From Pseudomonas alcaliphila JAB1 (GTDB taxonomy: Bacteria > Pseudomonadota > Gammaproteobacteria > Pseudomonadales > Pseudomonadaceae), in the NCBI RefSeq assembly GCF_001941865.1, contig NZ_CP016162.1, positions 1,116,001 through 1,180,000 on the forward strand: a DNA stretch of 64,000 nt, in the 5' to 3' direction. Below the pieces are notes generated by a model. It was not told the origin of the DNA, searched no databases, and worked only from the letters and a program-made list of their open reading frames with translations. Made by a program: the position numbers and the translations under genes. Numbering within the stretch: position 1 is the first letter of the stretch; every line of letters begins with the position of its first letter. Positions 3,774 to 17,821 of the stretch are shown in pieces.

Positions 3774-3869
3774 CGGCGGCGGTTTTGTCGTCCAGGCAGC
3801 AGTCTGGAGCCTGCCCAGGCGCCACAGCCTAACCGCTTGATAAAACGTAAATTTATCGATGATCTGGGG

Positions 3870-3898
3870 TTGACAGCGGTAGGCGAGACGCGGACAAT
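3870..3898 (+). promoter_or_regulatory. sigma-70 promoter of the tRNA-Met gene
   Basis: A perfect -35 TTGACA (3870-3875), a 17-base spacer and a -10 GACAAT (3893-3898). The -10 ends 10 bases before the tRNA 5' end at 3909. Confidence 0.75.
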
Positions 3899-3908
3899 GC
3901 GCGCCGTT

Positions 3909-3985
3909 GGCTACATAGCTCAGTTGGTTAGAGCGCAGCATTCATAATGCTGATGTCCCAGGTTCAAGTCCCGGTGTAGCCACCA
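3909..3985 (+). tRNA. tRNA-Met (CAT anticodon), elongator type
   Basis: A 77-base cloverleaf: acceptor GGCTACA pairs with TGTAGCC, the anticodon arm is CAGCA-TTCATAA-TGCTG, the T-arm carries GGTTCAAGTCC and CCA is encoded. It has no initiator C1-A72 mismatch, so it is an elongator tRNA. It lies at the left edge of the prophage and is the likely integration target; Pf-type phages are known to use tRNA genes. Confidence 0.95.
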
Positions 3986-3993
3986 TATTTATC

Positions 3994-4019
3994 AAAGGGT
4001 TAGCTTCGGCTAGCCCTTT
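3994..4019 (+). terminator. hairpin terminator after tRNA-Met
   Basis: An 11-bp stem (AAAGGGTTAGC / GCTAGCCCTTT with one G-T pair) and a TTCG loop, ending in T residues. It starts 9 bases after the tRNA. Confidence 0.7.
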
Positions 4020-4034
4020 GTCGTTTCTGGGGTA

Positions 4035-4054
4035 GTGACTACGAAGTGACTACA
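4035..4054. other. candidate integrase arm-type sites (left end of prophage)
   Basis: Two direct copies of GTGACTAC at 4035-4042 and 4046-4053, about 50 bases inside the tRNA 3' end. A third copy (GTGACTACA) stands at 16506-16514 near the other end of the element. Short direct repeats near both attachment sites are what tyrosine integrases bind with their N-terminal domain. The motif is only 8-9 bases long, so this is an inference. Confidence 0.4.
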
Positions 4055-4078
4055 CCCTGTCTACGCGGATCAGAAGCA

Positions 4079-4507
4079 TCATTGGTAGATGCCCTGGAAT
4101 CCCGCCACGCTGAAGCCATTCATTCTCTTGTCGCCGACCAATATGACCGGTACGCCATTGCCGCCGATTGAGTCGTATGCCTTGCGGGCTCGCTGGTCTT
4201 TCTCGATATCGTATTCAACGAAGCTGATGCCGTTCTGCTGGAAGTACTGGCGGGCCTGCTTGCAGTAGCCGCACCAGACAGCGGAGTACATGACGACTCG
4301 CTTTGATTCAGCGCCCTGGACTGGAGTGATCGCTTCATAGCTGACGCTCTCATAGGAATTGACCTTGATCGAGAGCAGCTCGGCTTTTTCCTTGTCTTTG
4401 GGTTTGTCACCGAAGTGAACGCGCCCATTCTCATCCGTCCACTTGTAGATTTCTGCTGAGCAGATCAAGGGGAGGGTAGCGATCAAGGCAAGGATGAGTC
4501 GGGGCAT
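4079..4507 (-). CDS. secreted DUF4124 + glutaredoxin-like protein
   Basis: A 142-residue protein with a signal peptide (MPRLILALIATLPLICSAEI). It continues with a DUF4124-type segment (IYKWTDENGRVHFGDKP, residues about 20-36) and then a glutaredoxin-like fold whose active site is CGYC (VVMYSAVWCGYC), with the cis-proline motif GVPVILV. The product should be a periplasmic thiol-disulfide protein. The start at 4507 gives the signal peptide directly. It sits between the candidate left arm sites and the integrase, so it may be phage cargo, though such genes also occur on Pseudomonas chromosomes. Confidence 0.75.
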   Translation of the reverse strand: MPRLILALIATLPLICSAEIYKWTDENGRVHFGDKPKDKEKAELLSIKVNSYESVSYEAITPVQGAESKRVVMYSAVWCGYCKQARQYFQQNGISFVEYDIEKDQRARKAYDSIGGNGVPVILVGDKRMNGFSVAGFQGIYQ

Positions 4508-4687
4508 ACAGTTAGCTTCCGTGCAAGACAGAGGGCTAGAGGGCTGTACCCCTCTCACCAGTAAGATGGATACTAACCAATCGCTGACACTGACGGAAGA
4601 GAAGCTTTACAGTGCTTAAAGCAGCGATACTTTGGAAGTCGAGAACTGTTAATCGACGGTCTGCTACTTATAAGAGATCAAGTTAAA

Positions 4688-5338
4688 ATGGAAATTTCCG
4701 ATATGGAAATCCTGATAAAAGAGTCATCTGACTTGTACAGGGCGATATATGACGTAGTTGCCGATGAAAATATCTATTTTTCGGAAAGATCACAGGTATG
4801 CAATTGCATTTGTTCAATGTCAACTGAGCACAGTTCAAGCATCCTGACGCTAGCCGCACACGGATATCATATTTCTGCCGCTGGAATGCTTCGGTTGCAA
4901 TTTGAAGCTCTGATTCGAGCTATATGGGTTTGGTTCATAGCATCGGATCAAGCAGTATCAAAGTTTACCCTGCCACTCAGCAGGGAAAGCCTTCAGGCTG
5001 CTAAGAACCTTCCCGGTGTCAACGACATGCTTAAAGCTCTTTTAAATTCAAACGAAATACCAAAACCGATGCTAGAAACGCTTGAGAATTTCCAGAGTAA
5101 ACTTCTTAAGGACCTTCATTCCTTAGTGCATTCCGGACTTCTTCCAGTGGCGCTTTATAGTGAAGGCGTTCCCGAGTCGATGCAGGTGGTGACAATAAAG
5201 AACTCTAATTTACTTGTGGTGCTGGCTGGGGCGATGATGGGTTTTTTGACGCAGTCACATTCAGTGATGCAAGAAATGAATAACATTCCGCGTCGCTTTG
5301 AAAGTTGCTTGCCGGGGCCGGCTATTTATCATGGGTAA
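4688..5338 (+). CDS. unknown protein, likely prophage cargo (possibly DUF6988-like)
   Basis: A 216-residue, mostly helical protein (MLRLQFEALIRAIWVWF near residues 60-76; NLLVVLAGAMMGFLTQSHSVM near the C-terminus). The pattern of a conserved RLQFEALIRA helix reminds me of the DUF6988 family, but I cannot confirm this. It is visibly richer in A+T than the host genes, stands on the opposite strand to the phage genes and converges on the integrase with only 3 bases between stops. In Pf4 the equivalent place next to the integrase carries a toxin-antitoxin pair. An alternative ATG is at 4703. Confidence 0.6.
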   Translation: MEISDMEILIKESSDLYRAIYDVVADENIYFSERSQVCNCICSMSTEHSSSILTLAAHGYHISAAGMLRLQFEALIRAIWVWFIASDQAVSKFTLPLSRESLQAAKNLPGVNDMLKALLNSNEIPKPMLETLENFQSKLLKDLHSLVHSGLLPVALYSEGVPESMQVVTIKNSNLLVVLAGAMMGFLTQSHSVMQEMNNIPRRFESCLPGPAIYHG

Positions 5339-5341
5339 TGG

Positions 5342-6337
5342 CTAAGCATGGTGTGACAGATATCCGCACTGTGTAAGAGGGGAAAGCCTAAGCGCCGATT
5401 CCAGATGATCAGGCGACAGGTGTGCATAGCGCATGGTCATCGTGATGGTGGAGTGCCCGAGGATGCGTTGCAGACCCAGGATGTCACCACCGCCCATCAT
5501 GTAATGGCTGGCGAAGGTGTGCCGAAGGATGTGGGTCATCTGGCCGGGAGTGTGGAAGCCGCAGCGCAGGTAAGCAGATCGGAATGCCGACCGGCAGGGC
5601 ATGAACAGCCGACCATTTCCCGGCATACCCACCTTTAACGCAATCTCTTCGACCTCTTTGGGGATCGGCACCGACCGGGACTGGCGGTTCTTAGTCCGGT
5701 GGAAATGGGCCTTACCACCGAACAGGGCACCCCGTGACAGGGATTCCGCTTCATCCCATCGGGCGCCAGTGGCCAAGCAGATCAGCGCAACCGGATAGGT
5801 ATGGTTGTTGGTCGAGCGCTTGCACTCTTCCAGCAGCTGTTCGACCTGTTGCAGTGTCAGAAACGTCAGCTCGGTCTGATCTGTCTTGATCTGACGAACC
5901 TTGGCCAACGGGTTGTTGCCGACCCATGCACCCAGGCGGATCAGTTCGGAGAAAACGGCCGACAGGTAACGCTGTTCATGGTTGACGGTGTGCGGGCTGA
6001 CGTCCTTGAGGCGAGTCTGGCGATAGCGTGCCCAGGCGAGGGCATCGAAGTTGGAAGCCATCGGGTTGCCGAGGCGTTCGACCGTGGCCAGGGTGCGTGC
6101 AAGACGATGCTTGGCATCCTTGAGCGAGCAGCCGTGCAGGTCATGCCAGAGCGTCACCAGATCAGACAGCCGATCATCGAGCGGCCGGCCGGTGCTGTTC
6201 AGGCTGGCGAAAAACTCCGATTCATAGCGCTGGGCTGCGGCCTTGGTCTTGAAACCCTTCTTGCGAATACGACGACCCGAGCGACCGTTTTCGTAGAAGT
6301 CAGCGGTCCAGGTATTGCCGTCTTTCCTGGCCGTCAT
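5342..6337 (-). CDS. tyrosine-recombinase integrase of the filamentous prophage
   Basis: A 331-residue phage integrase. It has an N-terminal AP2-like arm-binding segment (GNTWTADFYENGRSGRRIRKKGF), a SAM-like core-binding domain (about 60-150) and a C-terminal catalytic domain. The catalytic set is visible: Arg in TGARWDEAE, Lys in HRTKNRQ, H-x-x-R in HILRHTF, His in LGHST and the nucleophile Tyr in MRYAHLS. The start at 6337 is chosen because its ATG overlaps the TGA of the replication gene (ATGA), implying translational coupling; a slightly longer start at 6352 is possible. It should cut and join the attachment site at tRNA-Met. Confidence 0.93.
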   Translation of the reverse strand: MTARKDGNTWTADFYENGRSGRRIRKKGFKTKAAAQRYESEFFASLNSTGRPLDDRLSDLVTLWHDLHGCSLKDAKHRLARTLATVERLGNPMASNFDALAWARYRQTRLKDVSPHTVNHEQRYLSAVFSELIRLGAWVGNNPLAKVRQIKTDQTELTFLTLQQVEQLLEECKRSTNNHTYPVALICLATGARWDEAESLSRGALFGGKAHFHRTKNRQSRSVPIPKEVEEIALKVGMPGNGRLFMPCRSAFRSAYLRCGFHTPGQMTHILRHTFASHYMMGGGDILGLQRILGHSTITMTMRYAHLSPDHLESALRLSPLTQCGYLSHHA

Positions 6338-7617
6338 ACAGCACGCCCCCAACGCACATGGCGTTCTTCAAGGATGCCTTTGATGTGCTTGTACAGCCCG
6401 TCCTCATCCATGCCCTTGGCGGCATAGTGGTCGCGGATCACCGGCCAGCATTCCCAATCCTTGAGCCGGTGAAATGCTCGTCTAGCGCCTACTCGCTCCC
6501 GTGCCAGCAGGCTGACGAAGTTTCCCAGGAATAGCTCGACGTTCTTCCCAGAGAAGCCTCGCGAGGTCTTGTATTGGCGCTTGTACTCGGTGTCATCCAC
6601 CAGGGAGTCCACCGGCAGATCCACGCGCACGTCTTCACGGATCAACGTCCAGATGGGCTCAAAGTAGCCAGGGCGTGCCAGCAGCTTGAACTGGCGCAGG
6701 CCATAGCGCCACAGGCCGTCTAGGTGCGGAGCAAAGGTGGCGTAGCTGTTGGTTTCGATGGTTTCGCCGCTGTGCAGGTCGAACGAGCCGGAGGCGAATT
6801 GCTGGATCACCGAATGGTGATAACGCAGCTCGACACGCCACACGTCCTGTTCCGGGTTGTAGTTATCGGGGTCGGCTTCGTCGAAGCTGTCGCGACGCTT
6901 CCAGACGTTTTCCCAGTAGTCGAGCTTGTCGATGGCTCTGGCCTGCTCGGTCTTGTTGTAGATACCCAACTGGACGCCACCGGCAGAGCCGAACAGGTAG
7001 GACTGACCTTTGCCATAGGTGGCAGACTCCAGGGTCCACTGAATTTCCTTAATGCCGGAGATATCACGTGCGGCGCGTGCGCGGCAGTGCATGCGGGCGA
7101 CCAGATCGGCGGGCGGTTGCCATCCCTGCAGGTCTAGCGCGAGGTGGACAGCGCATTGGTTGCGCTCGACGTTGGTCAGCACGTGGTCGGCGTAGTAGTC
7201 CAGGCGTTCCTGAAGGCGCTCGGGGCAGAACTGGTCGATGGCATGCGGAGACACCTCGATTTTCAGGTGGGGGCCGATGTTCTCGATTTTGGCGTTGAAG
7301 TTCTTCACCAGCAGGATGATGCCCAGGTCAGCATTCTGCAGCTTGTACTGGTAGCCAGAGTCTTTGCTGACACGCCCGGAGTGCCAACGCTGGCCAGCGA
7401 AATCGACGATGGTGCCGGGCTTCTCGAACAGACTCATGATTTCTGGGCGGATCAGCCCTCGATACAACTGGCGTACGGTATCGACGCTGCAGGCAAGGAT
7501 TCGGACGTTGGACAGATCCACGAAACCACCCGCCCGAGGATCACAGAACAGACGACTTTTCGGGTTCTCTTTCCCGGTTTCAATATCAATGCGGTAGTAG
7601 TCCTTTGGTGCGCTCAT
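6334..7617 (-). CDS. phage replication initiation protein (Rep_trans / gene II-like)
   Basis: A 427-residue protein placed between Zot and integrase, exactly where Pf phages carry their rolling-circle initiator. It has conserved pieces CAVHLALDLQGW (around 155) and GIYNKTEQAR (around 218) that resemble the metal-binding and catalytic surroundings of Rep_trans/RstA-type initiators. It should nick the double-stranded replicative form to start rolling-circle replication. Its stop codon overlaps the integrase start. Upstream, a 64-base gap separates it from zot. The assignment rests on context plus partial motif recognition. Confidence 0.85.
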   Translation of the reverse strand: MSAPKDYYRIDIETGKENPKSRLFCDPRAGGFVDLSNVRILACSVDTVRQLYRGLIRPEIMSLFEKPGTIVDFAGQRWHSGRVSKDSGYQYKLQNADLGIILLVKNFNAKIENIGPHLKIEVSPHAIDQFCPERLQERLDYYADHVLTNVERNQCAVHLALDLQGWQPPADLVARMHCRARAARDISGIKEIQWTLESATYGKGQSYLFGSAGGVQLGIYNKTEQARAIDKLDYWENVWKRRDSFDEADPDNYNPEQDVWRVELRYHHSVIQQFASGSFDLHSGETIETNSYATFAPHLDGLWRYGLRQFKLLARPGYFEPIWTLIREDVRVDLPVDSLVDDTEYKRQYKTSRGFSGKNVELFLGNFVSLLARERVGARRAFHRLKDWECWPVIRDHYAAKGMDEDGLYKHIKGILEERHVRWGRAV

Positions 7618-7681
7618 TCTCTGTATCTCTCTGGTGTAACGTGGGTACTAAAATTGGTTTATCTGACGTGCTACAGGGACG

Positions 7682-8911
7682 TCAGGGAGCCGGCTGCGCC
7701 GCGCTGGCACCGGCGCCTGTTGCGCTACGCTGACCGGCGCCGGTGTCAGGCTCACGGCGCGCCTGACTTACAGACGGCAACGGATCTATCACGCTGGTAA
7801 CCGCTCCACGACCCGTCCAGGGCGTGACCCGTTCGCCGTCTACATCGCAGTACATGTCCACCTGACCGGGAAAGAACCGGCATTCGCTGATGGGCAAAAT
7901 CCGGGTCAATCCGCCGTTGGAAATCAGCACGACTCGGGCGGTCTTGCTGACCTGCCGGGGCTTGTCGTAGTCCTGCCAGTAGGTGGCCTCGGTCGGCTCA
8001 GGCTCTGGCCTGGGTGGAGGTGACCACGTGCCGGTGGGCGAATGGACGTAGCCACCCACGCGCCAGGTCAGGGACATGACGGGGCCATCCGGCTTGGTGT
8101 TGTACACAGCAGCCGCTGCCCGACTGGTTCGGCTCTGCGCCTCTGGCTCAGCCTTGGCCGGGATCGGTTCGACGTGCTTTGCCTGGGATGGCGGAGGCTC
8201 TGGCGAGAAGAACCGATTGATGCCGTACATGCCGAACGAGGCGCCGCCAACGATGATCGCCAGCAACGCCCACAAGCCCCAGGAGCGCAGGATCGAGGCG
8301 CGACCATCGGCCTTGGATTCGTCGCCCACGTCGCCCGTGGCCGATTGCGTGGCGGACTTGTAGTAGCACCACACGGTGGGCTTGAAGGTGCCAGCGGTTT
8401 GCCGCAGCAAGGCCGATTTCGGGGGCCGCTGACCTTTGGCGGCACCCCGGTAGATATCGACGCGGTAGAACTTCTTGGACTTCTTGACGATGCGGTAGGT
8501 GGTTTCGACCAGCAACGTTACCCAGGAAGCGATTTGCTCCAGATCCTGGGTTACCAGAATGACCCGCATGGACTGGCCTTTGTCATCGACGCGGTGGCGG
8601 TGCTCAGCCAGCAGGGCTTTATCTTCCAGCGGAGCGGCGTTGGTCTTTTGCCCCTTGGGCCAGCGGCGCCAGAGTTCATCGAGCACCAGCACGCAGCCAT
8701 TGGGAGCCAGTTCGGCCAGGTCGCGGCGCTCGAACCAGTCGGCCGGTAGCTGGTCGATGGTGCCGCCGAACTCAGCCAATAGCGCGTCGGTTTCCAGCGG
8801 GATGTTGGTGACGATATGCCGGCCTTGTTTGAGGCTGGGAATGATGACGTGTTCGACCACGCCATAACTCTTCCCATGGCCAGGCATGCCGGTGTAAGCA
8901 TCAATGGCCAT
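7682..8911 (-). CDS. zot: Zot / pI-like filamentous phage assembly ATPase
   Basis: A 409-residue protein with Walker A GMPGHGKS at residues 8-15, Walker B CVLVLDELW at about 73-81, and a conserved TQDLEQI stretch about 120. A single transmembrane helix (WGLWALLAIIVGGASFGMYG, about 212-231) is followed by a Pro-rich periplasmic tail. This is the pI/Zot architecture: an inner-membrane ATPase that drives virion extrusion. It overlaps or abuts its neighbours in the structural operon (3 bases after the pVI-like gene). The C-terminal 170 residues are variable in the family. Confidence 0.92.
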   Translation of the reverse strand: MAIDAYTGMPGHGKSYGVVEHVIIPSLKQGRHIVTNIPLETDALLAEFGGTIDQLPADWFERRDLAELAPNGCVLVLDELWRRWPKGQKTNAAPLEDKALLAEHRHRVDDKGQSMRVILVTQDLEQIASWVTLLVETTYRIVKKSKKFYRVDIYRGAAKGQRPPKSALLRQTAGTFKPTVWCYYKSATQSATGDVGDESKADGRASILRSWGLWALLAIIVGGASFGMYGINRFFSPEPPPSQAKHVEPIPAKAEPEAQSRTSRAAAAVYNTKPDGPVMSLTWRVGGYVHSPTGTWSPPPRPEPEPTEATYWQDYDKPRQVSKTARVVLISNGGLTRILPISECRFFPGQVDMYCDVDGERVTPWTGRGAVTSVIDPLPSVSQARREPDTGAGQRSATGAGASAAQPAP

Positions 8912-8914
8912 GGG

Positions 8915-9244
8915 TCACCCAATGATCGGAATGCGGCGAATCACGAAGCGGATCAGGTAGGCCAGCAGGACCACCGTGACGCCGAAATCGAGCCTGAACA
9001 TGGAGGTGAAGAAGATCACTTCGGGCGGAATGCTCTGCATGGCGCTGCCCGCATCATGGAAGAACTGAGGCACCGGGATGGCCTCGAAGAACTTCACCAC
9101 CGCCTCACAGATGCCGCTGAAGACCCATTGCGGGAAGTTCTCCAGGAAGTCGATGAACGAGTCATAGGCATCCTGCAGCCACTCCAGCAGCTTGTCCGGG
9201 AAGGACCACAACCAGTCAGCGAAACGGCCTAGTTTCTCAAGCAT
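8915..9244 (-). CDS. pVI-like minor virion protein (DUF2523)
   Basis: A 109-residue protein with an amphipathic, Trp-rich N-terminus (LGRFADWLWSFPDKLLEWL) and a C-terminal hydrophobic helix ending in RFVIRRIPIIG. This is the DUF2523 pattern found next to zot in Pf, CTX and related phages and equated with pVI, which caps the particle end together with pIII. It lies 9 bases after the pIII-like gene and 3 bases before zot, consistent with a translationally linked operon. Confidence 0.85.
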   Translation of the reverse strand: MLEKLGRFADWLWSFPDKLLEWLQDAYDSFIDFLENFPQWVFSGICEAVVKFFEAIPVPQFFHDAGSAMQSIPPEVIFFTSMFRLDFGVTVVLLAYLIRFVIRRIPIIG

Positions 9245-9253
9245 GGGAACACC

Positions 9254-10549
9254 TCAAGAGGACAGGACAATACGCACCGCCAGCAGCGACCAGACTGCGA
9301 TCATGAGGGCGGTGAAAATGCCGGATATCTGCGGCCACAGGGTGCAGTGGCCATCGAAGACGATGCGTTTGCCGAACAGCTCGACGGAGCCGGACGGGCA
9401 GACACCGCCACCCGAGGGGAAGGCGATGCCAGTCACCGCGCTGCCTATCGGTGAGTTGAGGACGCCGTCATAGACGCGCTTGAACGACTCATCGAAGCCG
9501 GGAATCTTTTCAGCGCCGCCGAAGTAGCTGGGGGCTACGAAGCCGCATTCGTCGCCTTCGCAGAAGCCAGGGCCGGAGCCTTCGCCTTCTTCTTCACCGT
9601 CGCCTTCGCCATCACCGCTCCCATTACCGGAGCCGCCGCCGCTACTACCGCCGCCATCCCCTGAGCCATTGCCGTCACCGTCGCCATTACCGGAGCCGTC
9701 ACCACCCCCGTTATTGCCGCCACCTGAGTCACCGCCCCCGGAGTTGCCACCGCCTGAGCCGCCATCCGAGCCACCGTCATTGCCACCGCTATCGCCGCCA
9801 CCGGTGTCACCACCGGGCGGATTGCCGTTGTCGTCCGGGTCTTTGACGCAGGTGGTACCCGACCACGAATAACCGGGCATACCGGCGCACGGGTCATTGG
9901 GATCAGATGGCGGAACGTCTGGCGTGTCGGGCGGGTTGAGGGCGTCGCCGGGGGCACCCAGGGCGGCGTCGGGGGCTGAGCAGGTATCTCCTGTGCCCGT
10001 GCCGACATAGTTGCAGTAGCCCGAAGTCGTGGAGCCAATGTCCTTGTAGCAGCTGGAGGCAGCGCTACCGATGCTGTACGAGCAGCCGCCGAAGCACACC
10101 GATGAGCCCGGTGGAAAGCCGCTGGCAATGTAGTTGCGGCCACCGGAGTTGATGATGGGGCCGCTGGGCGATTTGAAGATGCCAGGGGACAGGTTGGAGC
10201 AGTCTTGCGGCTCGGGTGGCGGGTTGCAGGTCAGACCGTCAGCGGAGCCATGTTCACAGGTAACTGTTGTGGAAACCCACTGGCCATAGGCCCCGCGCGA
10301 GCCACCAGCAATTAAGTCACCAATACAGTTACCACCGCCGGTGCCTGAAAGAGCTGCAACATGCCTGTACTTGGCGCCGTCGGGCGCTTCGGAAAGAATC
10401 GCCATACAAGCCGCATCAGCGTTCTTTTGGCGGGAATAAACAAGGTCACCTTGTTTGCCGTAGTAGTAGGTAATTTTGGTGGCCGCACTGGACACCGCAG
10501 AGAAGGCCAGCAGGGCGGCGCAGAGTACGAAGTAAAAGGCTTGGCGCAT
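9254..10549 (-). CDS. pIII-like adsorption protein
   Basis: A 431-residue protein. It begins with a signal peptide (MRQAFYFVLCAALLAFSAVSSAA), then a Cys-containing N-terminal domain. A long low-complexity linker of Gly, Asp, Asn and Ser (about residues 225-335) follows, then a C-terminal domain with Cys pairs and a final membrane helix (IFTALMIAVWSLLAVRIVLSS). Signal peptide, glycine-rich linker and C-terminal anchor are the hallmarks of pIII/CoaA, which binds the pilus receptor. The start at 10549 has GAGG upstream; the frame runs 111 bases further upstream without a signal-like sequence. Confidence 0.85.
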   Translation of the reverse strand: MRQAFYFVLCAALLAFSAVSSAATKITYYYGKQGDLVYSRQKNADAACMAILSEAPDGAKYRHVAALSGTGGGNCIGDLIAGGSRGAYGQWVSTTVTCEHGSADGLTCNPPPEPQDCSNLSPGIFKSPSGPIINSGGRNYIASGFPPGSSVCFGGCSYSIGSAASSCYKDIGSTTSGYCNYVGTGTGDTCSAPDAALGAPGDALNPPDTPDVPPSDPNDPCAGMPGYSWSGTTCVKDPDDNGNPPGGDTGGGDSGGNDGGSDGGSGGGNSGGGDSGGGNNGGGDGSGNGDGDGNGSGDGGGSSGGGSGNGSGDGEGDGEEEGEGSGPGFCEGDECGFVAPSYFGGAEKIPGFDESFKRVYDGVLNSPIGSAVTGIAFPSGGGVCPSGSVELFGKRIVFDGHCTLWPQISGIFTALMIAVWSLLAVRIVLSS

Positions 10550-10556
10550 GACGACC

Positions 10557-10631
10557 TCACCAGCGGGAGAAAACGGCGTAAGCGCAGGCACAGCCGATGC
10601 AGAAGAAAGCGAATTCCCACAGCGCTTGCAT
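10557..10631 (-). CDS. tiny hydrophobic virion protein (pVII/pIX-like, 24 aa)
   Basis: A 24-residue frame starting MQALWEFAFFCIGCACAYAV and ending FSRW. It is almost entirely hydrophobic, with basic residues only at the end. It has the same GAGGTCGTC leader before the ATG as the following pIII-like gene. Position between major coat and pIII matches the tiny minor coat genes of filamentous phages. Because of its size, the evidence is position, ribosome-binding site and composition. Confidence 0.6.
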   Translation of the reverse strand: MQALWEFAFFCIGCACAYAVFSRW

Positions 10632-10644
10632 GACGACCTCGCAA

Positions 10645-10671
10645 TGAGAAAGGCCGGCACTGGGCCGGCCT
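10645..10671 (-). terminator. intrinsic terminator after the major coat gene
   Basis: An 8-bp perfect stem (AGGCCGGC / GCCGGCCT) with a 5-base loop, followed on the minus strand by TTTCTC. It lies 15 bases after the coat gene stop. Filamentous phages typically have a terminator here, so that coat mRNA is made in excess over the downstream minor coat and assembly genes. Confidence 0.75.
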
Positions 10672-10686
10672 GGATGGGTGAGCGGC

Positions 10687-10908
10687 TTAGCCGCGGAGGA
10701 AGCCGAGGACGATGCGCGCGCCTTTGATACCGGCGTACACAGCCGCCAGCAGACCCGCCACAGCGAGAACGCCGACCGCAATGGTCGCGAAGTCGATACC
10801 GCTGGTGACGGCGCTGTAGTCCCAGCCGGCGGCGAAGGTCATGGTGGACAGGGCCGCGAAGGGCAGGGCGAGTGCCAGATCGCGGGAGACGCGTTTCAGT
10901 TGTTTCAT
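10687..10908 (-). CDS. major coat protein precursor (pVIII / CoaB-like)
   Basis: A 73-residue precursor. The N-terminus is basic then hydrophobic (MKQLKRVSRDLALALPFAAL) with a probable signal-peptidase site after TFA. The mature part of about 46 residues has a short acidic N-terminus (GWDYSAVTSGIDFA), one transmembrane helix (VGVLAVAGLLAAVYAGI) and a basic C-terminus (KGARIVLGFLRG) that would contact the DNA. Size, layout and position are those of inovirus major coat proteins, with thousands of copies per particle. Confidence 0.88.
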   Translation of the reverse strand: MKQLKRVSRDLALALPFAALSTMTFAAGWDYSAVTSGIDFATIAVGVLAVAGLLAAVYAGIKGARIVLGFLRG

Positions 10909-10928
10909 GGTGATGCTCTCCAGAAGGT

Positions 10929-11156
10929 TCAGCCGCGCCGGATGAAGTCGAGAATGGCTTTGCAGCCGATCCCGATCAGAAGCACGGTGGTTACGAGGGA
11001 AAATCCGATCCCGAACACTTGGGCCAGCACGGCTGGGTCTAATTGGCTCGGGTCGAACTGTTCAGGCAGCTGGATCAGCACCCAACTGCCAGAACACAGG
11101 GGCGCCCCGCCTGCATCGACCGATACAGCACCGTCACAGGTGAGCGCGTAAGTCAT
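10929..11156 (-). CDS. small phage membrane protein (75 aa), unknown
   Basis: The protein has an N-terminal polar part with two Cys (LTCDGA, PLCSGSW) and one transmembrane helix (VFGIGFSLVTTVLLIGIGC), with a short basic end (FIRRG). It sits immediately upstream of the major coat gene, in the place of a Pf-phage membrane protein of unknown role. The ATG at 11156 is preferred over a TTG two codons earlier. Confidence 0.7.
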   Translation of the reverse strand: MTYALTCDGAVSVDAGGAPLCSGSWVLIQLPEQFDPSQLDPAVLAQVFGIGFSLVTTVLLIGIGCKAILDFIRRG

Positions 11157-11172
11157 TGCCAATGCCCGTCCC

Positions 11173-11352
11173 TTACTCAGCCAGGCTGGGGTCGCGGATG
11201 ACCTCAGCCATGGCGATGCAGTCGGGGCAGATGACGAGGTCGGGCGCCTTGTTCAGATCGGGCAGCAGGTCGGGCTGGGGGGCGGACTGGTTATAGAGCT
11301 GGCCCATGGGCTGCCCACAGCAGTCACACAGCACGCGATCAACGATCAGCAC
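11173..11352 (-). CDS. small zinc-ribbon-like phage protein (59 aa)
   Basis: A GTG start with GGGAGG about 8 bases upstream opens a 59-residue frame holding two Cys knuckles: CDCCGQ at about 9-12 and CPDC at about 42-45. It fits tightly between the ssDNA-binding gene (stop at 11368) and the membrane-protein gene (start at 11156). Paired CxxC motifs suggest zinc binding. The function is unknown; similar small Cys-rich proteins occur in other Pf-like phages. Confidence 0.65.
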   Translation of the reverse strand: MLIVDRVLCDCCGQPMGQLYNQSAPQPDLLPDLNKAPDLVICPDCIAMAEVIRDPSLAE

Positions 11353-11367
11353 GGCGGCGCCCTCCCG

Positions 11368-11751
11368 TTAGGCCTTGGCCGGGTCCGGCTGGGTGCCGGT
11401 CGGCTTGGGCTGTTGTTGGGTACCTTGCGGGGCGGCAGGCTTGGCGGCCTGGCCTTTCGGGTTCACCGCCTCGATATGCACAGCCAGGTTGTTACCTTTC
11501 TGTTTGCCAGCACGCGCCACTTCGAAGGTGATGCGGACCGTTTCGAGCGGGGCAAATTGGGCGCCAGAGGCGAACACCTCATCTGCAACGTCGGCAGGCA
11601 CATCCATGCTCACAATGGACAGGCCGTTTTCGGTGATGCCGTCTGGCTCATCGCCGTAAAACACCTTGACGATTTTTACGTCGGTGCCGTTTTGGTTGAA
11701 CGCCAGTTTCTGAGTGCCGAGAAATGCAACTTCCATAGTCGAACGTGCCAT
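11368..11751 (-). CDS. ssDNA-binding protein (gene V-like)
   Basis: A 127-residue protein with a beta-rich first 90 residues and a Pro/Gln-rich disordered tail (PAAPQGTQQQPKPTGTQPDP). Size, tail and position at the head of the structural operon correspond to the Pf phage gene V protein, which coats progeny single strands before packaging. The start has GAGG 8 bases upstream. The sequence is not close to the M13 protein, so this assignment depends largely on synteny. Confidence 0.75.
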   Translation of the reverse strand: MARSTMEVAFLGTQKLAFNQNGTDVKIVKVFYGDEPDGITENGLSIVSMDVPADVADEVFASGAQFAPLETVRITFEVARAGKQKGNNLAVHIEAVNPKGQAAKPAAPQGTQQQPKPTGTQPDPAKA

Positions 11752-11819
11752 TTGTGTTTCCTCGCTTAGTTGCGCGTTATTGCGCGGTTTTGCCTTTCAG
11801 CAGGCCGAGCGATCCCGCA

Positions 11820-11923
11820 CGGGCAAACTTTCGTTTTTGCCCGAGGGTGGCTCTCGACTTGCCGGGGTTTCAGTTGCCGCTTGTGCAGCCTGTTAGTTGG
11901 TTAACACCAAGGGCTTTGCCCTT
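11820..11923. other. phage intergenic region with two perfect hairpins (candidate origin or packaging signal)
   Basis: The gap upstream of the ssDNA-binding gene has no gene. It holds CGGGCAAA-N8-TTTGCCCG (11820-11843) and AAGGGC-TTT-GCCCTT (11909-11923). Filamentous phage intergenic regions carry such hairpins as origin and packaging signals. No nick site can be assigned from sequence alone. Confidence 0.35.
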
Positions 11924-11999
11924 GTCATCCCACTCTTGCCGCCGAGGGCTCGGGAGCGCGGGGCGGTGGAGCTGCCCCACACTCACGAGCGGAGGCTAT

Positions 12000-12311
12000 T
12001 CAGGGAGGTGGGCGCTCAAGGGTTCGCTCTGCCCGTGCCTCCGTTTGACCGAACGGTGAAGCGTGTTCGGACAAGCCGGGGGCGCGGCCCTTGACCTGTT
12101 CAGCATCGGCGGCGTTGGCCGGATCGCTGGGGGCGCACTGGTGAACGACCTTGGTCATTGCCTGGTAGAAGTAGTCGTCTACCGATTCCATCACCTTGAC
12201 GACTTGCAACGTCGAGAAGATCGAACCGACAGCAAACCCGATGCACAGATAGGGGAATGCGTGCCAGAGCAGGGCGACCAGATAGCGGCCGACGCGAAAA
12301 GAGACGGTCAT
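12000..12311 (-). CDS. phage membrane protein, unknown (103 aa)
   Basis: It starts MTVSFRVGRYLVALLWHAFP, with one strong hydrophobic segment (LVALLWHAFPYLCIGFAVGS) and a polar, charged C-terminal half. It is 4 bases after the preceding Cys-rich gene, so it is part of the early phage operon. I see no recognised domain. Confidence 0.6.
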   Translation of the reverse strand: MTVSFRVGRYLVALLWHAFPYLCIGFAVGSIFSTLQVVKVMESVDDYFYQAMTKVVHQCAPSDPANAADAEQVKGRAPGLSEHASPFGQTEARAERTLERPPP

Positions 12312-12315
12312 GCGC

Positions 12316-12687
12316 TCACCCCACCAGTTCGAACGGTTCGCGCAGGGGCACGAAGGGCGTTGGTTTGCCGGTGTCGCTCACAACGAACCAGTACTTCGGC
12401 GGACGGGGCGACGGCTTGTGTTTCTCGCAGTACGAGGCAGGTGTCACACAGTTCCGCCCATCGACCATGCGCCATTGAGCGGGGCGGCAGTCGGTGCATC
12501 GTGTGGACGGGGAGGCGGCGGGCTTCGGCGGTTGCCAGTTTCGGTTTAACCAGCAGACAGAGCAGTCGCAATTGTCGGCGTGCGGGTGACGGCGAAAGGC
12601 GAACGTCTTGCCCTGCGGATTGCGGGCAAAGCAGCTCTGGCAGCCGCAGTCCTTCGGGTGCGATAGCAGGTACTGGCTGGGATTCAT
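12316..12687 (-). CDS. Cys-rich phage protein, unknown (123 aa)
   Basis: The protein carries three Cys clusters, CGCQSC (about 14-19), CDCSVC (about 40-45) and CTDC (about 63-66), separated by His and Lys/Arg-rich parts, which suggests zinc-binding knuckles and possibly nucleic-acid binding. An overlapping frame of similar length on the same strand lacks this pattern. It sits between the XisF-like gene and a membrane protein gene in the early region. Confidence 0.65.
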   Translation of the reverse strand: MNPSQYLLSHPKDCGCQSCFARNPQGKTFAFRRHPHADNCDCSVCWLNRNWQPPKPAASPSTRCTDCRPAQWRMVDGRNCVTPASYCEKHKPSPRPPKYWFVVSDTGKPTPFVPLREPFELVG

Positions 12688-12701
12688 GGGCGGGCACCTG
12701 A

Positions 12702-12974
12702 TTAGTCATCGCTGTAATCCCCCGCGCAGAAGATGGTTTTGCCTCGGTCGAGGTCGCGGCGGATGCGGTGCAGGTTGATGACGCGGTGACGTCCGATTTT
12801 CACGGTCGGCAGGGCGTGGCTTTCGATCCAGCCGCGCACCACGTCTTCGGTGATTTGCTCCATGCCCAGGAGCTGAGCCAGCACGTATTTCGTGCAGAAC
12901 GGTGCGTCGCGGAGATCCGTTACGCGTTGGGCGTCTCCCGAAATCGAAAGCCCCACTACACCAGACTGTTCCAT
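12702..12974 (-). CDS. XisF-like DNA-binding regulator / excisionase
   Basis: A 90-residue protein whose C-terminal half looks like a MerR/excisionase-type winged helix (EDVVRGWIESHALPTVKIG, then RHRVINLHRIRRDL). It is the first gene of the leftward phage operon and is divergent from the repressor gene, as xisF and pf4r are in Pf4, where XisF promotes excision and turns on replication. The ATG at 12974 is preferred to a TTG 8 codons upstream. Confidence 0.75.
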   Translation of the reverse strand: MEQSGVVGLSISGDAQRVTDLRDAPFCTKYVLAQLLGMEQITEDVVRGWIESHALPTVKIGRHRVINLHRIRRDLDRGKTIFCAGDYSDD

Positions 12975-13015
12975 AGCTTTTGCCCTATACTCGTCCAAAC
13001 GTTCGACTCAGATAC

Positions 13016-13079
13016 TTGAGTCAAAATATTTGAACAAAGCATATGAATTGCTTTCTCAAAATTCAAACTATTTGATCAA
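13016..13079. promoter_or_regulatory. probable repressor operator cluster
   Basis: Between the divergent xisF-like and repressor genes, an AT-rich stretch carries three TTGA-type dyads: TTGAGTCAA (13016-13024), TTGAACAA (13030-13037) and TTGATCAA (13072-13079). The last one is a perfect palindrome. Spaced dyads at a divergent promoter are typical of prophage immunity operators. Confidence 0.5.
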
Positions 13080-13093
13080 AATACTTATACGAA

Positions 13094-13366
13094 ATGGGCA
13101 CAATAAACGAGCGCGTTAGAACGGTTGCATCTATGGCTGGCATGGATCGGCTGGTGAGGGAGACGCCGATAGGCTCGAACCGGTGGAGAACGGTGCTCTA
13201 TAACAAGGACGTACGGATCAGCACGGATGAGATTGAAGCGCTAGGCGCTCTTTATCCTAGCTACCGATGGTGGATGGTCAGCGGTGAGATTGCTCCGGAA
13301 ATCGGTCAGACAAGCCCCGAATTCGACGAAGCCAACAGAAACTTGACCAATCCAAACGCGGGATAG
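13094..13366 (+). CDS. phage repressor C-like small DNA-binding protein
   Basis: A 90-residue protein (INERVRTVASMAGMDRLVRETPIG..., then DEIEALGALYPSYRWWMVSG). The helical N-terminal part followed by the YPSYRWWM segment is the pattern of small Cro/repressor-type proteins that recognise their own promoter. It is transcribed away from the phage operon, with the operator-like dyads just upstream. I see no good Shine-Dalgarno sequence, so translation may be weak or the message nearly leaderless. By position it is the counterpart of Pf4r, the superinfection-immunity repressor. Confidence 0.65.
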   Translation: MGTINERVRTVASMAGMDRLVRETPIGSNRWRTVLYNKDVRISTDEIEALGALYPSYRWWMVSGEIAPEIGQTSPEFDEANRNLTNPNAG

Positions 13367-13476
13367 CGATCACACAGGAAGTAGCTAGACGCTGGTACGC
13401 CCGAAGAATCAGTGATTAGGACAGGTACTGAGCAAAAGGCAGATTGAAAGACCACTCACTGTGCGGCCAAAACTAC

Positions 13477-14145
13477 TTATTCGGAAATTAAGGGCATTAG
13501 AAGTTCCTCCGCACCTTTAGAGCAGTAGATCGCGCCGGATGATGAAAGCTCTAGATGTTCTGTTTCTAGATTAAGGCGAAGAGACATAGTTAGGCGCTCT
13601 AGACGAGCCTTGCTAGTGTCGAACGCTTTATATAAATCTTGTAGTGCGTCTTTGCTTGATGTTACCTCAATTTTAGCGAGTGCTTCATTTTCAATCGGCA
13701 CATTGCTTGCTATAACTTTCGAAACGGACAGGCGTGCTACTTTAGTATTGCTTGAAACTTCATCATATACTTTCTGTAGGTTAAAAGAGAGTTTCTTTAG
13801 TGATGCAGAGAACTTGAAAGCTGTAGACAGTAGAGTTGTAAAATTTTTAATGGAAGCTGGCGGTGCTGATATTTTTATCAGTGATAATCCGGGCTTTATA
13901 GGTGTGACAGAGAAATCAAAAAATATATACTTTGTGATTGGTAAGCTCTCTATGGCTCCAAACGGATCTTTTATAGATTCGAGCGATTCCTGGCGTTCAA
14001 TGTAGCGGCCTCTAACGAATTCGTGCTTGATCTCCAATAGCTCAAAGCCAGGATTTATGTCTGTTGAGTAAATGTGTCTTTCCAAAGCTGATGCCACAGA
14101 TTGTTGATGGCTGAGCAAAAGCCATTGCTGTTTAATCGGTTTCAT
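13477..14145 (-). CDS. third gene of the AT-rich unknown operon (222 aa)
   Basis: I do not recognise this protein. It has no signal peptide or membrane helix and looks like a soluble alpha/beta protein: beta-rich segments (YIFFDFSVTPIKPGLSLIKISAP) are followed by a long helical part (KLSFNLQKVYDEV, SKDALQDLYKAF, TSKARLERLTMSLRLNL). It starts 14 bases inside the preceding gene, in another frame, so it is probably translationally coupled. Its A+T content is far above that of host genes, a sign of recent transfer. It probably works together with the other two products; a regulatory, immunity or targeting subunit would all be possible. Confidence 0.65.
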   Translation of the reverse strand: MKPIKQQWLLLSHQQSVASALERHIYSTDINPGFELLEIKHEFVRGRYIERQESLESIKDPFGAIESLPITKYIFFDFSVTPIKPGLSLIKISAPPASIKNFTTLLSTAFKFSASLKKLSFNLQKVYDEVSSNTKVARLSVSKVIASNVPIENEALAKIEVTSSKDALQDLYKAFDTSKARLERLTMSLRLNLETEHLELSSSGAIYCSKGAEELLMPLISE

Positions 14146-15211
14146 TGGCTTTATCTTTGATGTTGGCTTTAAGTTGAGTTAGCGTGTTATTCGCAGATTC
14201 TTCAATTAGTCTTAGCATCTTCTTGTCAGTAAGCAAGTCGCAAGCAGTTCTCTGCTTGTTGTGAAAGCCCTTGTCATTTAACTTGTGAATGCCTCGAACT
14301 ACATAAGCAAATCCCTCACAACTGTCAGGCGCTGAAAATTGAGCGTCTATGTCGAATATATCAGAGTTGTCATTGTTGGCGATGCACGTCCAAGTAACAC
14401 GGTTTATATAGAATCCTGCATCAAAAAAAGCATCGAGTTCAGGTGAGGATAGAAGGCCTTCGCCTTTGAAGGATATTTTTGTTATATGTACTCCTATTTC
14501 CGTGTCATCTTTCTCTGGTGAGGCTATTTTAGGGTTATATACGTAAACGTCGGAGACGTCTTTAGGCTTGAAACCAGGGATGCCAAAAAGCAAGTTTTTG
14601 AAGAATAGAGTTCGTGCATTGCTGTCAAAGGTTTTTAAACTTATTTCGTCATGATTGAAAACCTCGTCCTCTCCAACCTGCTTGGATAGAAAATCTAAAA
14701 AGATGTCTTTGGCATTATCTATGAATTTGTTATCGGTATGCCTGACAAGAAAATCAGAAGAGCTAAGATCTATCTCGATCAAACCTTCACGCTCAACTGT
14801 CTGCTTGAATTCAGATTTGTTGCTGTTATATTCCTCGTAGCGTATATGAAGCTCAAAGCTTTTACCTTTCCATACGCAGTTAACTTCGGCGCCTTTTGAC
14901 TCAAGCTCTTTTTTCAGTTCGCTCGCGACATACTCAAGCTTGCTGTCGTTAAAGCTATTTCTTACTCTGGTTAATTTCGTTCTTTCTTTGCGAGAGGTGC
15001 TGCTAAAAATACTTGCTATTCGTTGATGGTCATAATAGTCATGATTAAGAGTGCTAAAGTAAAGTGCGACATCCTCGCGAGGTGTGTCATCTGAGATTAA
15101 TATTCCACGGCTTAGAAAAATTTCTCTAATGTCGGCGTTTTTGAAATTATGCTGCATCAATGCATCATAAACAGCTTTGTCTGAGGCGTAGTAGAGATAT
15201 CCGCTTTTCAT
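14132..15211 (-). CDS. second gene of the AT-rich unknown operon (359 aa)
   Basis: The ATG at 15211 shares its A with the TAA stop of the preceding gene (TAATG), with GGAAG just upstream. The product is a soluble, charged protein. The first ~100 residues (AVYDALMQHNFKNADIREIF, then EDVALYFSTLNHDYYDHQRI and RKERTKLTRVRNSF) are helical and basic and could be a DNA-binding or helical adaptor domain. A central beta-rich part (VNCVWKGKSFELHIRYEEY, then EIGVHITKISFKG) follows, with a Lys-rich helical tail. I recognise no family. Very low GC compared with flanking host DNA. By analogy with other coupled defence operons it could sense the invader or control the nuclease-like partner, which is inference only. 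Confidence 0.7.
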   Translation of the reverse strand: MKSGYLYYASDKAVYDALMQHNFKNADIREIFLSRGILISDDTPREDVALYFSTLNHDYYDHQRIASIFSSTSRKERTKLTRVRNSFNDSKLEYVASELKKELESKGAEVNCVWKGKSFELHIRYEEYNSNKSEFKQTVEREGLIEIDLSSSDFLVRHTDNKFIDNAKDIFLDFLSKQVGEDEVFNHDEISLKTFDSNARTLFFKNLLFGIPGFKPKDVSDVYVYNPKIASPEKDDTEIGVHITKISFKGEGLLSSPELDAFFDAGFYINRVTWTCIANNDNSDIFDIDAQFSAPDSCEGFAYVVRGIHKLNDKGFHNKQRTACDLLTDKKMLRLIEESANNTLTQLKANIKDKANETD

Positions 15212-16251
15212 TAGTACTTCCAAGCTAGGTGGCCGGGCATATAATTTGGTGTGGTCAGGTTTATAGGCTCGAACTCTATGCGATCTAGTTCTTTCTTTTT
15301 GAACTCATCCATTCCCCAGGATAATAGATAAGCATTCTTAGCGGCTTGAAAGTTATTCTTGATTGCTGGGTCTGGAGAGTGGTGTGCCATCCTGATTTTG
15401 ATGGATGACCTACTTCTTAGTATTTGAAATCTGGCTAAGGAATCTAAGAGGTACCTAAATTCGTGCTCTGTTGAGCCATCTTGATTGTAATAAATGAGAT
15501 AGCCGTCATTTGTGGATGCGTCCTCTCCAGATAAGGAGACTGGACCATGATGAATAATCATGTAGGGCGAGCAAAGCAGTTCGATAGTCGCAGGAAGATT
15601 GCCCGAGTCACCATGGGATCTATGGAGATATAGTTCTGGATAGAAGAAAGAATAATCGTCGGCAGGGAATTCATTCTCAACAATGAGGTTCTTGATGTCC
15701 ATCACAACTGAGTATAGATATCGTATCCGAACAGCATCAAGTAAATGAAGAAGTTGACCCTGTTGAATTCCGAGCTTGTTAAGATGTATGCCTTTTACAA
15801 GGCCCATAAGGTCTTTGTGGTATTCTCCGTCGTGATTGTATATAAAGAGCATTCCACGAACCTCATAGTCTCCCTTTTCTAAGACATATTTCTTTTGCCA
15901 TTCTGAGCTAGATCTTGCGCAGTCTATTGTGCTGGCAAGAGATTCAAGGGCGGTAGATATTCTAGAGGTTTGAATGCTGCTTTTGGCGTAAGACTTGAGG
16001 TCGGTATTGAGAAGTATTGACCTATTCTTGTAGGGGTCAAAGTAGCGAAAGACTACATCTACCGGGTGAGAGTGATTTTTCTCTTCAGGTTTTTTCTTGC
16101 TTTCTTTTTTTGGCTTTGGCTTGTGTCGCTCAACTTTATGACATGGGAAATTTTCATCCATTGTCGGAATGGCTTCCCATTTAAACCATTTAAAAATATC
16201 TTTTGTTATTTTCGTGGCAACATCTGTGACATTTGCAACTTCGCCCGACAT
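15211..16251 (-). CDS. first gene of the AT-rich unknown operon: candidate PD-(D/E)XK nuclease (346 aa)
   Basis: The start at 16251 has GGAG 5 bases upstream. A Lys/Glu-rich linker (about 41-58) leads into a segment resembling the restriction-endonuclease core: Asp65 in HPVDVVFRY and, after a hydrophobic strand, Asp84-Leu-Lys86 in ILLNTDLKSY. The spacing of about 19 residues fits the D...(D/E)xK metal-binding set. A conserved-looking helix (SSIQTSRISTALESLA) follows, as in this fold. The remaining 250 residues (e.g. GMLFIYNHDGEYH, SSIKIRMAHHSPD) are unassigned. No methylase or specificity subunit is next to it, so it is not an ordinary restriction system. The nuclease call is by eye and needs a profile search. 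Confidence 0.65.
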   Translation of the reverse strand: MSGEVANVTDVATKITKDIFKWFKWEAIPTMDENFPCHKVERHKPKPKKESKKKPEEKNHSHPVDVVFRYFDPYKNRSILLNTDLKSYAKSSIQTSRISTALESLASTIDCARSSSEWQKKYVLEKGDYEVRGMLFIYNHDGEYHKDLMGLVKGIHLNKLGIQQGQLLHLLDAVRIRYLYSVVMDIKNLIVENEFPADDYSFFYPELYLHRSHGDSGNLPATIELLCSPYMIIHHGPVSLSGEDASTNDGYLIYYNQDGSTEHEFRYLLDSLARFQILRSRSSIKIRMAHHSPDPAIKNNFQAAKNAYLLSWGMDEFKKKELDRIEFEPINLTTPNYMPGHLAWKY

Positions 16252-16505
16252 AAAAGCTCCAGACTATAGAGAATGCTCTGGTGAACCAAGAGAGGTTTGA
16301 GAGGGGGCCGGTAGCGCTACTACTGCATTGACTTGAAAAGTCAGTGCGCGCCGCGTACGAGGGGACGGCTCTAGATAGAGGTGTATGAGAAAGAATGAAT
16401 ATGTAGAGTGGATAGGCATGATTCGTTCCCTCGCCTTTGCTCCCTGATAGGCAAAATGCCATTAGCGAAAACTATCTCGCGAGAGCAGGAAGGTAAAGAG
16501 GCAGG
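16252..16505. other. leader and promoter region of the three-gene operon, no gene
   Basis: This stretch holds no convincing reading frame on either strand. A TATAGT (minus strand, about 16262-16267) could be a -10 very close to the gene start, with only a weak -35. Base composition rises towards that of the host after about 16500. Confidence 0.3.
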
Positions 16506-16549
16506 GTGACTACATTAGTCGAATTTTCTGGAAAGGACTGGTCTAGCCA
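16506..16549. other. candidate right end of the prophage (arm site plus imperfect attachment core)
   Basis: GTGACTACA (16506-16514) repeats the arm-like motif found at 4035-4054. At 16538-16549 GGTCTAGCCAGC resembles GGTGTAGCCACC of the tRNA-Met 3' end (10 of 12 bases; 14 of 20 over a longer alignment). The match is not perfect, as a fresh attachment-site duplication should be, so it may be decayed or chance. Confidence 0.3.
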
Positions 16550-16674
16550 GCTTGAGGGAGTGCTGAAAGGCCCGTGCTATGGGGCTATCAGGCTTAGCGG
16601 GGCGGTTCGTAGCGGATTCATAATCCCCAGCCCGCACCACCCCCAACCCAACAATTCCTCACCCCAAAAACAAC

Positions 16675-16698
16675 AAAACCCCGCCGAAGCGGGGTTTT
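16675..16698 (-). terminator. intrinsic terminator downstream of ychF
   Basis: A 10-bp perfect stem AAAACCCCGC / GCGGGGTTTT with a 4-base loop. On the minus strand it is followed by TTTTGTTGTTTTT. It lies 23 bases after the ychF stop and could act in both directions. Confidence 0.85.
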
Positions 16699-16720
16699 GT
16701 TCATGCACTGCTCCCAACGA

Positions 16721-17821
16721 TCAAACGTTAAAGCGGAAGTGCATCACGTCGCCGTCCTTGACGATGTAGTCCTTGCCTTCCAGGCGCCATTTGCCGGCTT
16801 CCTTGGCGCCGGCTTCGCCCTTGTACTGGATGAAGTCGTTGTAGGCGATGACTTCGGCGCGGATGAAGCCTTTCTCGAAGTCGGTGTGGATCGCTGCAGC
16901 CGACTGCGGGGCGGTGGCGCCGACCTTGACAGTCCAGGCGCGGACTTCCTTCACGCCAGCGGTGAAGTAGGTCTGCAGGTTGAGCAGCGAGTAACCGGCG
17001 CGGATCACGCGGTTCAGGCCCGGCTCTTCCATGCCCATGGTTTCGAGGAACATCTGCATTTCTTCGAGATCGTCCAGTTCGGCGATCTCGGCTTCGATCT
17101 TGTTGCACACCGGTACGACGATGGCGCCTTCCGCTTCGGCGATGGCGTTGACCACGTCGAGGTGCGGGTTGTTCTCGAAGCCGTCTTCGGCGACGTTGGC
17201 GATGTACATCACCGGCTTGGTGGTGAGCAGGTGGAAGGTCTTGGCCAGGCGCTTCTCGTCGTCACCCAGGTCTTTGAGCAGGCTGCGCGCCGGCTTACCT
17301 TCGGTGAGGTGGGGGATGAGTTTTTCCAGCAGGGCTTTCTGCGCCACGGATTCCTTGTCGCCACCTTTAGCGGTGCGAGCCACGCGCTGCAGTTGTTTCT
17401 CGCTGCTGTCGAGGTCGGCCATGATCAGTTCGAGGTCGATGATCTCGATGTCGCGCTTGGGGTCAACGCTGTTGGCAACGTGGATGACGTTGTCGTCTTC
17501 GAAGCAGCGCACCACGTGGGCGATGGCGTCGGTCTCGCGGATGTTGGCGAGGAACTTGTTGCCCAGGCCTTCACCTTTCGACGCGCCCGCGACCAGGCCG
17601 GCGATGTCGACGAATTCCATGGTGGTAGGGATGACCTTCTCGGGCTTGACGATCTCGGCCAGGGCATCCAGGCGCGGGTCGGGCATGGGCACGATGCCGC
17701 TGTTCGGCTCGATGGTACAGAACGGGAAGTTCTCCGCCGCGATGCCGGATTTGGTGAGGGCGTTGAACAGGGTGGACTTGCCGACGTTGGGCAGGCCGAC
17801 GATGCCGCAGTTGAATCCCAT
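16721..17821 (-). CDS. ychF: redox-regulated ATPase/GTPase YchF (Obg family)
   Basis: A 366-residue protein of typical YchF length. The G1 loop [14 protein letters not shown] lies at residues 8-21, a [14 protein letters not shown] switch II region follows, and the atypical G4 motif NVAE (about 200) is what makes YchF prefer ATP. A coiled-coil middle part and a C-terminal TGS domain ([16 protein letters not shown] onwards) complete it. YchF binds ribosomes and modulates translation and oxidative stress responses. It is 25 bases downstream of pth, a widespread pairing, and is followed by a terminator. Confidence 0.97.

Follow-up and report, generated by a model that had tools for sequence, protein, structure and literature searches.

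A 64,000-nucleotide stretch of Pseudomonas alcaliphila JAB1 (contig NZ_CP016162.1, positions 1,116,001 to 1,180,000; hereafter the window) holds an inovirus prophage with three overlapping minus-strand genes at its right end. These are Hp1 (15211..16251; 346 residues), encoding a predicted PD-(D/E)XK nuclease of the defence system Rst_3HP, Hp2 (14132..15211; 359 residues), encoding its partner protein, and Hp3 (13477..14145; 222 residues), encoding the third component. Genes 1 and 2 have TAATG in common, read on the minus strand as GAAGTACTAATGAAAA at 15220-15205, the TAA stop of gene 1 occupying 15213-15211 and the ATG start of gene 2 occupying 15211-15209. The overlap of genes 2 and 3 is 14 bases long (14132-14145). 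The G+C content of the trio is 40.5%, and that of a 60-base sample within it (14641-14700) is 36.7%, compared with 61.1% for the inovirus core (5342-12998) and 64.0% for the host side (16721-64000). An earlier note on this DNA had described the tandem overlaps and the AT-rich composition, and both descriptions agree with the coordinates and values given here. It had also proposed that the genes form an undescribed defence system of three families that it could not name, and that proposal fared differently.

Assignment of the trio to Rst_3HP

The PADLOC models Hp1, Hp2 and Hp3 matched genes 1, 2 and 3 of the window in order, with expect values (E) of 2.3e-63, 6e-38 and 9.3e-15. All three components are present in the window, adjacent, on one strand and arranged as Hp1-Hp2-Hp3, an order also seen in loci L002-L005 and the other complete loci of the comparison below. 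We take these PADLOC models to be the components of Rst_3HP (3HP for short), an identification supported by Vibrio phage 1F53_PE003, whose record gives the three homologues the labels Rst_3HP__Hp1, Hp2 and Hp3. Judged from its sequence, the trio is a divergent member of this known system. The earlier note had itself named a full match to a known system as grounds for giving up novelty, and because all three genes match Rst_3HP in order, the idea of an undescribed system is rejected. Nor are the families nameless: besides PADLOC, they are present in PHROGs as phrog_7059 (Hp1, E=9e-110), phrog_6531 (Hp2, E=2e-90) and phrog_5850 (Hp3, E=4e-37), all three listed there as function unknown. The defence function put forward in the note is supported through family membership.

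An excerpt of Rousset et al. 2022 (PMC9122126) reports that a three-gene system of the P2 hotspot, in which no domain was clearly predicted, confers protection against P1 on E. coli; going by name and source, this system is very probably Rst_3HP. The portion of the DefenseFinder paper available to us (PMC9090908) describes Rst_3HP as mostly prophage-encoded. Excerpts of three further papers merely list Rst_3HP or 3HP (PMC13101515, PMC11291487 and PMC13249269), the first of them reporting it in P. aeruginosa strains. A literature search of open-licence papers found no description of the Rst_3HP mechanism.

The trio of the Klebsiella P2-like phage ST437-OXA245phi4.1 (L003, MK416011.1), which sits between portal and replication endonuclease genes, scored 792, 820 and 521 bits at full length with the PADLOC models and is on these scores close to the model sequences. 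Window Hp1, Hp2 and Hp3 are 38%, 29% and 28% identical to their counterparts in this phage, and 69%, 51% and 43% identical to those of a Pseudomonas paralactis trio. An excerpt of the Phold paper (PMC12774648) also reports a GAPS1-like protein in this Klebsiella phage, which may or may not be one of the trio.

Linkage and divergence of the three genes

Searching via Hp1, we assembled 141 loci, comprising 4 of 8 matching phage records, 80 of 123 genome-contig relatives and 57 viral-contig loci. Hp2 was present in 137 of the 141 and Hp3 in 133, the latter count leaning on the Hp3 profile because that profile was iterated on the same loci. Of the eight loci lacking Hp3, seven break off inside the trio or soon after the portion of it present; in L073 (Nannocystis), Hp2 lies in two frames and Hp3 is absent. 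With start codons picked by rule, the gap between Hp1 and Hp2 was at most 20 bases in 86 of the 87 loci measured, and that between Hp2 and Hp3 in 89 of 89. The earlier note had staked its proposal on the three genes being found together elsewhere, which they are, and its picture of a tightly packed three-gene unit is upheld by the overlaps in the window and by the order and linkage kept at other loci. As a separate observation, about 1.3 kilobases (kb) lie between Hp2 and Hp3 in L104 (12055-13374), perhaps an insertion.

The three proteins also co-vary. Over 88 non-redundant loci, pairwise distances correlated with Pearson coefficients of 0.92 (Hp1-Hp2), 0.76 (Hp1-Hp3) and 0.80 (Hp2-Hp3); Spearman coefficients for the same pairs were lower, at 0.82, 0.40 and 0.46. 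Correlations as high by Pearson arose in 0 of 1000 permutations, a comparison that still includes the host descent shared among loci. Median pairwise distance over these loci rose from 0.648 for Hp1 through 0.744 for Hp2 to 0.819 for Hp3, which is the fastest diverging component. The PADLOC Hp3 model misses the third trio gene of Pseudomonas phage 99-2 (L002, 12609-13298), a gene that stands in the Hp3 position and fits the iterated Hp3 profile, and 3HP may therefore be undercounted.

Among genomes of the genus, 17 of 298 have Hp1, and so do 3 of 299 in a phylum sample, the genome of the window being counted in both. Many viral-contig trios are accompanied by P2-type genes, and relatives of Hp1, the component examined in this case, occur on 21 plasmid records. 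A DNA-level search for similar sequence in E. coli genomes gave no match.

The Hp1 candidate nuclease site and apparent kinship to GAPS4

The PD-(D/E)XK site has the order Glu, Asp, Asp-x-Lys. In Hp1, the candidate residues are Glu4 (motif I; codon 16240..16242), Asp65 (motif II; 16057..16059) and Asp84-Leu85-Lys86 (motif III; 15994..16002), all on the minus strand. We followed them in two alignments, A5, made up of window Hp1 and its relatives from 80 of 100 non-redundant loci (81 sequences), and A1, containing 66 of 120 listed PF26115 proteins. Eight positions are identical in all 81 sequences of A5 (Glu4, Cys37, His62, Asp65, Asp84, Lys86, Ser87 and Cys111). In A1, Asp65, Asp84 and Lys86 are identical in 66 of 66 sequences, and Glu4 is present in 63, with a gap in the other three. 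Precomputed annotation places PF26115 on all 120 Hp1 homologues listed of the 238 found, window Hp1 included, and UniRef names three of these 120 proteins GAPS4 PD-(D/E)XK nuclease. Conserved residues and family assignment thus support Hp1 as a PD-(D/E)XK-type nuclease, with Asp65 and Asp84-x-Lys86 forming part of the candidate site. This is what the earlier note had read from Asp65 and Asp84-x-Lys86 behind a Lys/Glu-rich stretch; its positions are right, and the residues it singled out proved invariant among the relatives. Glu4 is a further conserved acidic residue that was absent from its motif list. A match of Hp1 to a non-nuclease fold, which the note had named as a refuting result, did not turn up in the sequence and profile comparisons made here. 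We also observed that the invariant Cys37, Cys111 and His62 lie near the predicted catalytic motifs and have counterparts in GapS4a; a metal-binding or structural role is possible.

GAPS4, reportedly described by Mahata et al. 2024, is said to consist of GapS4a and GapS4b. The GapS4a model of NCBIfam, in which the protein is described as antiphage, matches 45 of the 81 Hp1 relatives at E up to 1. One of 369 genomes of the class holds a GapS4a above the curated cut-off (347 bits), and two more relatives, at 32-34% identity, lie on plasmids. In all three of these loci a second gene overlaps the end of GapS4a, and Hp3 was found in none of them. Unlike a two-gene GAPS4 operon with no third component, the window has Hp3. 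We found no GapS4a in phage records, nor among viral contigs when these were searched with one query protein for close relatives.

Profile-to-profile comparison by hhalign, with GapS4a and GapS4b profiles built from these three loci, gave 97.7% for Hp1 and GapS4a (E 2e-12; 209 columns) and 91.7% for Hp2 and GapS4b (E 8e-7; 222 columns). Crossed pairings and those with Hp3 stayed below 1%, and 15 control families, the full set that passed selection, reached at most 1.9%. There is a good case for Hp1 as a distant homologue of GapS4a; Hp2 is probably a distant relative of GapS4b, a link less secure than the first. The one GapS4a/GapS4b pair that was run against PADLOC Hp1 and Hp2 gave no match, and PDB sequence searches returned nothing convincing for GapS4b (best E 0.89) or for the Hp2 profile (best E 0.11).

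Hp2 and Hp3 themselves yielded few leads. A SAP/HeH-type DNA-binding domain at the start of Hp2, hinted at by eye and by stray Pfam matches among 96 Hp2 members (two to HeH and two to Ish1), did not appear in the Pfam scan of the consensus and for that reason is not claimed. Other weak matches were to DUF4518 (8 of 96; best E 3e-4) and DUF3368 (4 of 96; best E 1e-3), and the consensus matched DUF7825 weakly (E 0.0098). For Hp3 we found no convincing relative in PDB (best E 0.93) or Pfam and no counterpart. The record of Pseudomonas phage 54-4 labels its third gene (L004, 2581-3252) an RdgC-like exonuclease, and this candidate was rejected when hhalign of 104 Hp3 against 15 RdgC sequences gave 0.2% over 35 columns.

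The system could be the one we describe but with RNA or some other substrate for Hp1, or with a structural part for it, in which case the nuclease label would mislead as to its effect. PD-(D/E)XK folds do act on several substrates, and the lack, by eye, of the motif III Asp in GapS4a would favour a non-DNA or structural Hp1. We nevertheless consider this unlikely, as the identity of the four candidate catalytic residues in 81 of 81 Hp1 sequences argues for catalysis.

Prophage setting, proposed mechanism and known systems

The trio belongs to an integrated inovirus prophage (4041..16543) that carries cargo at either end. In the relative G039, which has an empty site, the sequences corresponding to window positions 3826-4041 and 16543 onward are contiguous, with CTA common at the junction; the element, trio included, therefore measures about 12.5 kb. 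A transfer RNA (tRNA) gene, tRNA-Met (3909..3985, plus strand), lies just left of the integration site. No tRNA-derived att repeat was found at the right end, the borders being settled by the empty site in G039, and an Rfam scan of 3500-17000 gave tRNA only.

The core encodes, on the minus strand, a phage integrase (5342..6352; phrog_1, E=2e-69), a gene in the inovirus replication position (6334..7617; phrog_1159, function unknown, E=3e-209), a Zot-like inovirus protein (7682..8911; phrog_197, E=7e-71) and a minor head protein (8915..9244; phrog_974, E=4e-25). The second of these sits beside the integrase gene, the place taken in Pseudomonas phage 99-2 by the replication protein, and has a BLAST match in L002 and L004. 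A virion PHROG match was also found among the inovirus proteins, and a phage repressor-type regulator (13094..13366; phrog_147 transcriptional regulator, E=6e-20) is encoded on the plus strand. The trio stands at the right end of the element, beyond this regulator, in keeping with the cargo position that the earlier note had given it. A second cargo occupies the left end, with a glutaredoxin/DUF4124 gene (4079-4558, minus strand) and a DUF6988 gene (4688-5338, plus strand); the stretch 4042-5341 has a G+C content of 48%. The layout of the element resembles that of phage 99-2. Defence cargo on filamentous prophages has been reported before (excerpt of PMC11630473), and an excerpt of a Pf phage study (PMC11878078) gives eight defence systems, 3HP not among them.

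This setting bears on whether the trio is a restriction-type system, telling self from non-self through DNA modification by a host or phage methyltransferase encoded elsewhere. A DNA cytosine methyltransferase is among the core gene products of the trio-bearing Pf-like phages 99-2 and 54-4, and a gene for a DNA adenine methylase is present in the trio-bearing Klebsiella phage ST437-OXA245phi4.1. By contrast, neither the trio nor the other scanned proteins of the window element include a methyltransferase, and we regard this explanation as improbable. The earlier note had remarked on the lack of a methyltransferase or helicase, and neither family was matched among the proteins scanned, a set that covered part of the small open reading frames and in which several proteins have no match beyond PHROGs of unknown function.

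The reading that we prefer, and hold to be somewhat better than an even bet, is that the trio is divergent Rst_3HP cargo of the inovirus, with Hp1 as a DNA-cleaving (DNase) effector, Hp2 as core partner and Hp3 as sensor or licenser in phage-triggered DNA cutting. Hp1 would act as a PD-(D/E)XK DNase through the candidate site E4-D65-D84-x-K86 and form a core complex with Hp2, as GapS4a may do with GapS4b. Hp3, an added and fast-evolving subunit, would most likely sense the invading phage or license Hp1. The complex would stay silent until a competing phage provided the trigger; Hp1 would then cut DNA and infection would fail, which would protect the lysogen and its resident inovirus.

Several results weigh against this reading. 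Identity to the Klebsiella P2-phage version, the one resembling what has been tested, is low. Window Hp1 scores 41.1 bits with the NCBIfam GapS4a model, far below the cut-off of 270. In plain hmmsearch, the Hp1 model recovered one of three GapS4a and the Hp2 model none of three GapS4b, and because of the latter the Hp2-GapS4b link rests on hhalign with three-sequence profiles. The counterpart in GapS4a of the Asp-Leu-Lys of Hp1 is, by eye, Ser-Val-Lys, a stretch that hhalign places two residues off. The name GAPS4 nuclease for PF26115 is one that we infer from the UniRef names of three carriers. The Pfam copy that we scanned gave no match for window Hp1, probably because it does not include PF26115, and no Pfam nuclease family was matched by Hp1, its 80 aligned relatives (25 of 39 families shown) or the consensus. 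A PDB sequence search with Hp1 returned no convincing relative (best E 0.51).

Two further explanations concern present function. Decayed or silent cargo, with no function in the strain today, seems about as improbable as the restriction-type system: a promoter scan found no minus-strand site upstream of Hp1 (16252-16720), with 10 sites in the region against a shuffle mean of 6.7, but in the window copy all three reading frames are open and the overlaps and candidate catalytic residues are kept. The least probable is a toxin-antitoxin or other selfish maintenance module with no part in phage defence, for although modules of that kind, too, typically have tightly overlapping genes and a mobile carrier, the three linked components in fixed order, the anti-P1 activity reported in an excerpted source for what we infer to be the same family, and the relation of Hp1 to GapS4a, named antiphage by NCBIfam, all speak against it.

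With its full match to Rst_3HP the system is not new; its apparent kinship to GAPS4 is informative. Candidate effector residues can be named for a system earlier described, in the excerpt cited above, as having no clear predicted domain; at least one part is tied to GAPS4; Hp3 is singled out as the extra, fast-changing part; and a filamentous phage is added to the carriers of 3HP. A more tentative step, to which we give slightly less than even weight, is that Rst_3HP and GAPS4, though they bear separate names, are two branches of one defence superfamily built on an ancient pair of PD-(D/E)XK effector (Hp1/GapS4a) and conserved partner (Hp2/GapS4b), to which 3HP has added Hp3, a subunit that diversifies rapidly and serves in sensing or specificity. 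If so, the trio would give small filamentous phages with single-stranded DNA a compact weapon against double-stranded DNA competitors, and Hp3 would be its exchangeable recognition part.

Compared with known systems, the trio shares with Rst_3HP its three genes, their order and tight spacing, matches to all three models and carriage on a prophage. It differs in that the window copy resides in a filamentous phage and is only 38%, 29% and 28% identical to the Klebsiella P2-phage version; protection against P1, as given in the excerpted source, is reported for the three-gene P2-hotspot system. In the inoviruses 99-2 and 54-4 of Pseudomonas, the trio likewise lies beyond the repressor and outside the structural genes, under the record labels nuclease related protein, hypothetical protein and, in 54-4, RdgC-like exonuclease. 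Their Hp1 proteins are, however, 36% and 30% identical to window Hp1, respectively, and Hp3 of 99-2 has no significant BLASTP match to window Hp3 (E 0.08). The trio runs in the same direction as the repressor in 99-2 and opposite to it in 54-4 and the window. From GAPS4 the trio is set apart by Hp3, which was found in none of the three GapS4 loci, and by the score of window Hp1 below the GapS4a cut-off; the two nevertheless resemble each other in the likeness of Hp1 to GapS4a and probably of Hp2 to GapS4b, in gene order and in the overlapping genes of the three GapS4 loci.

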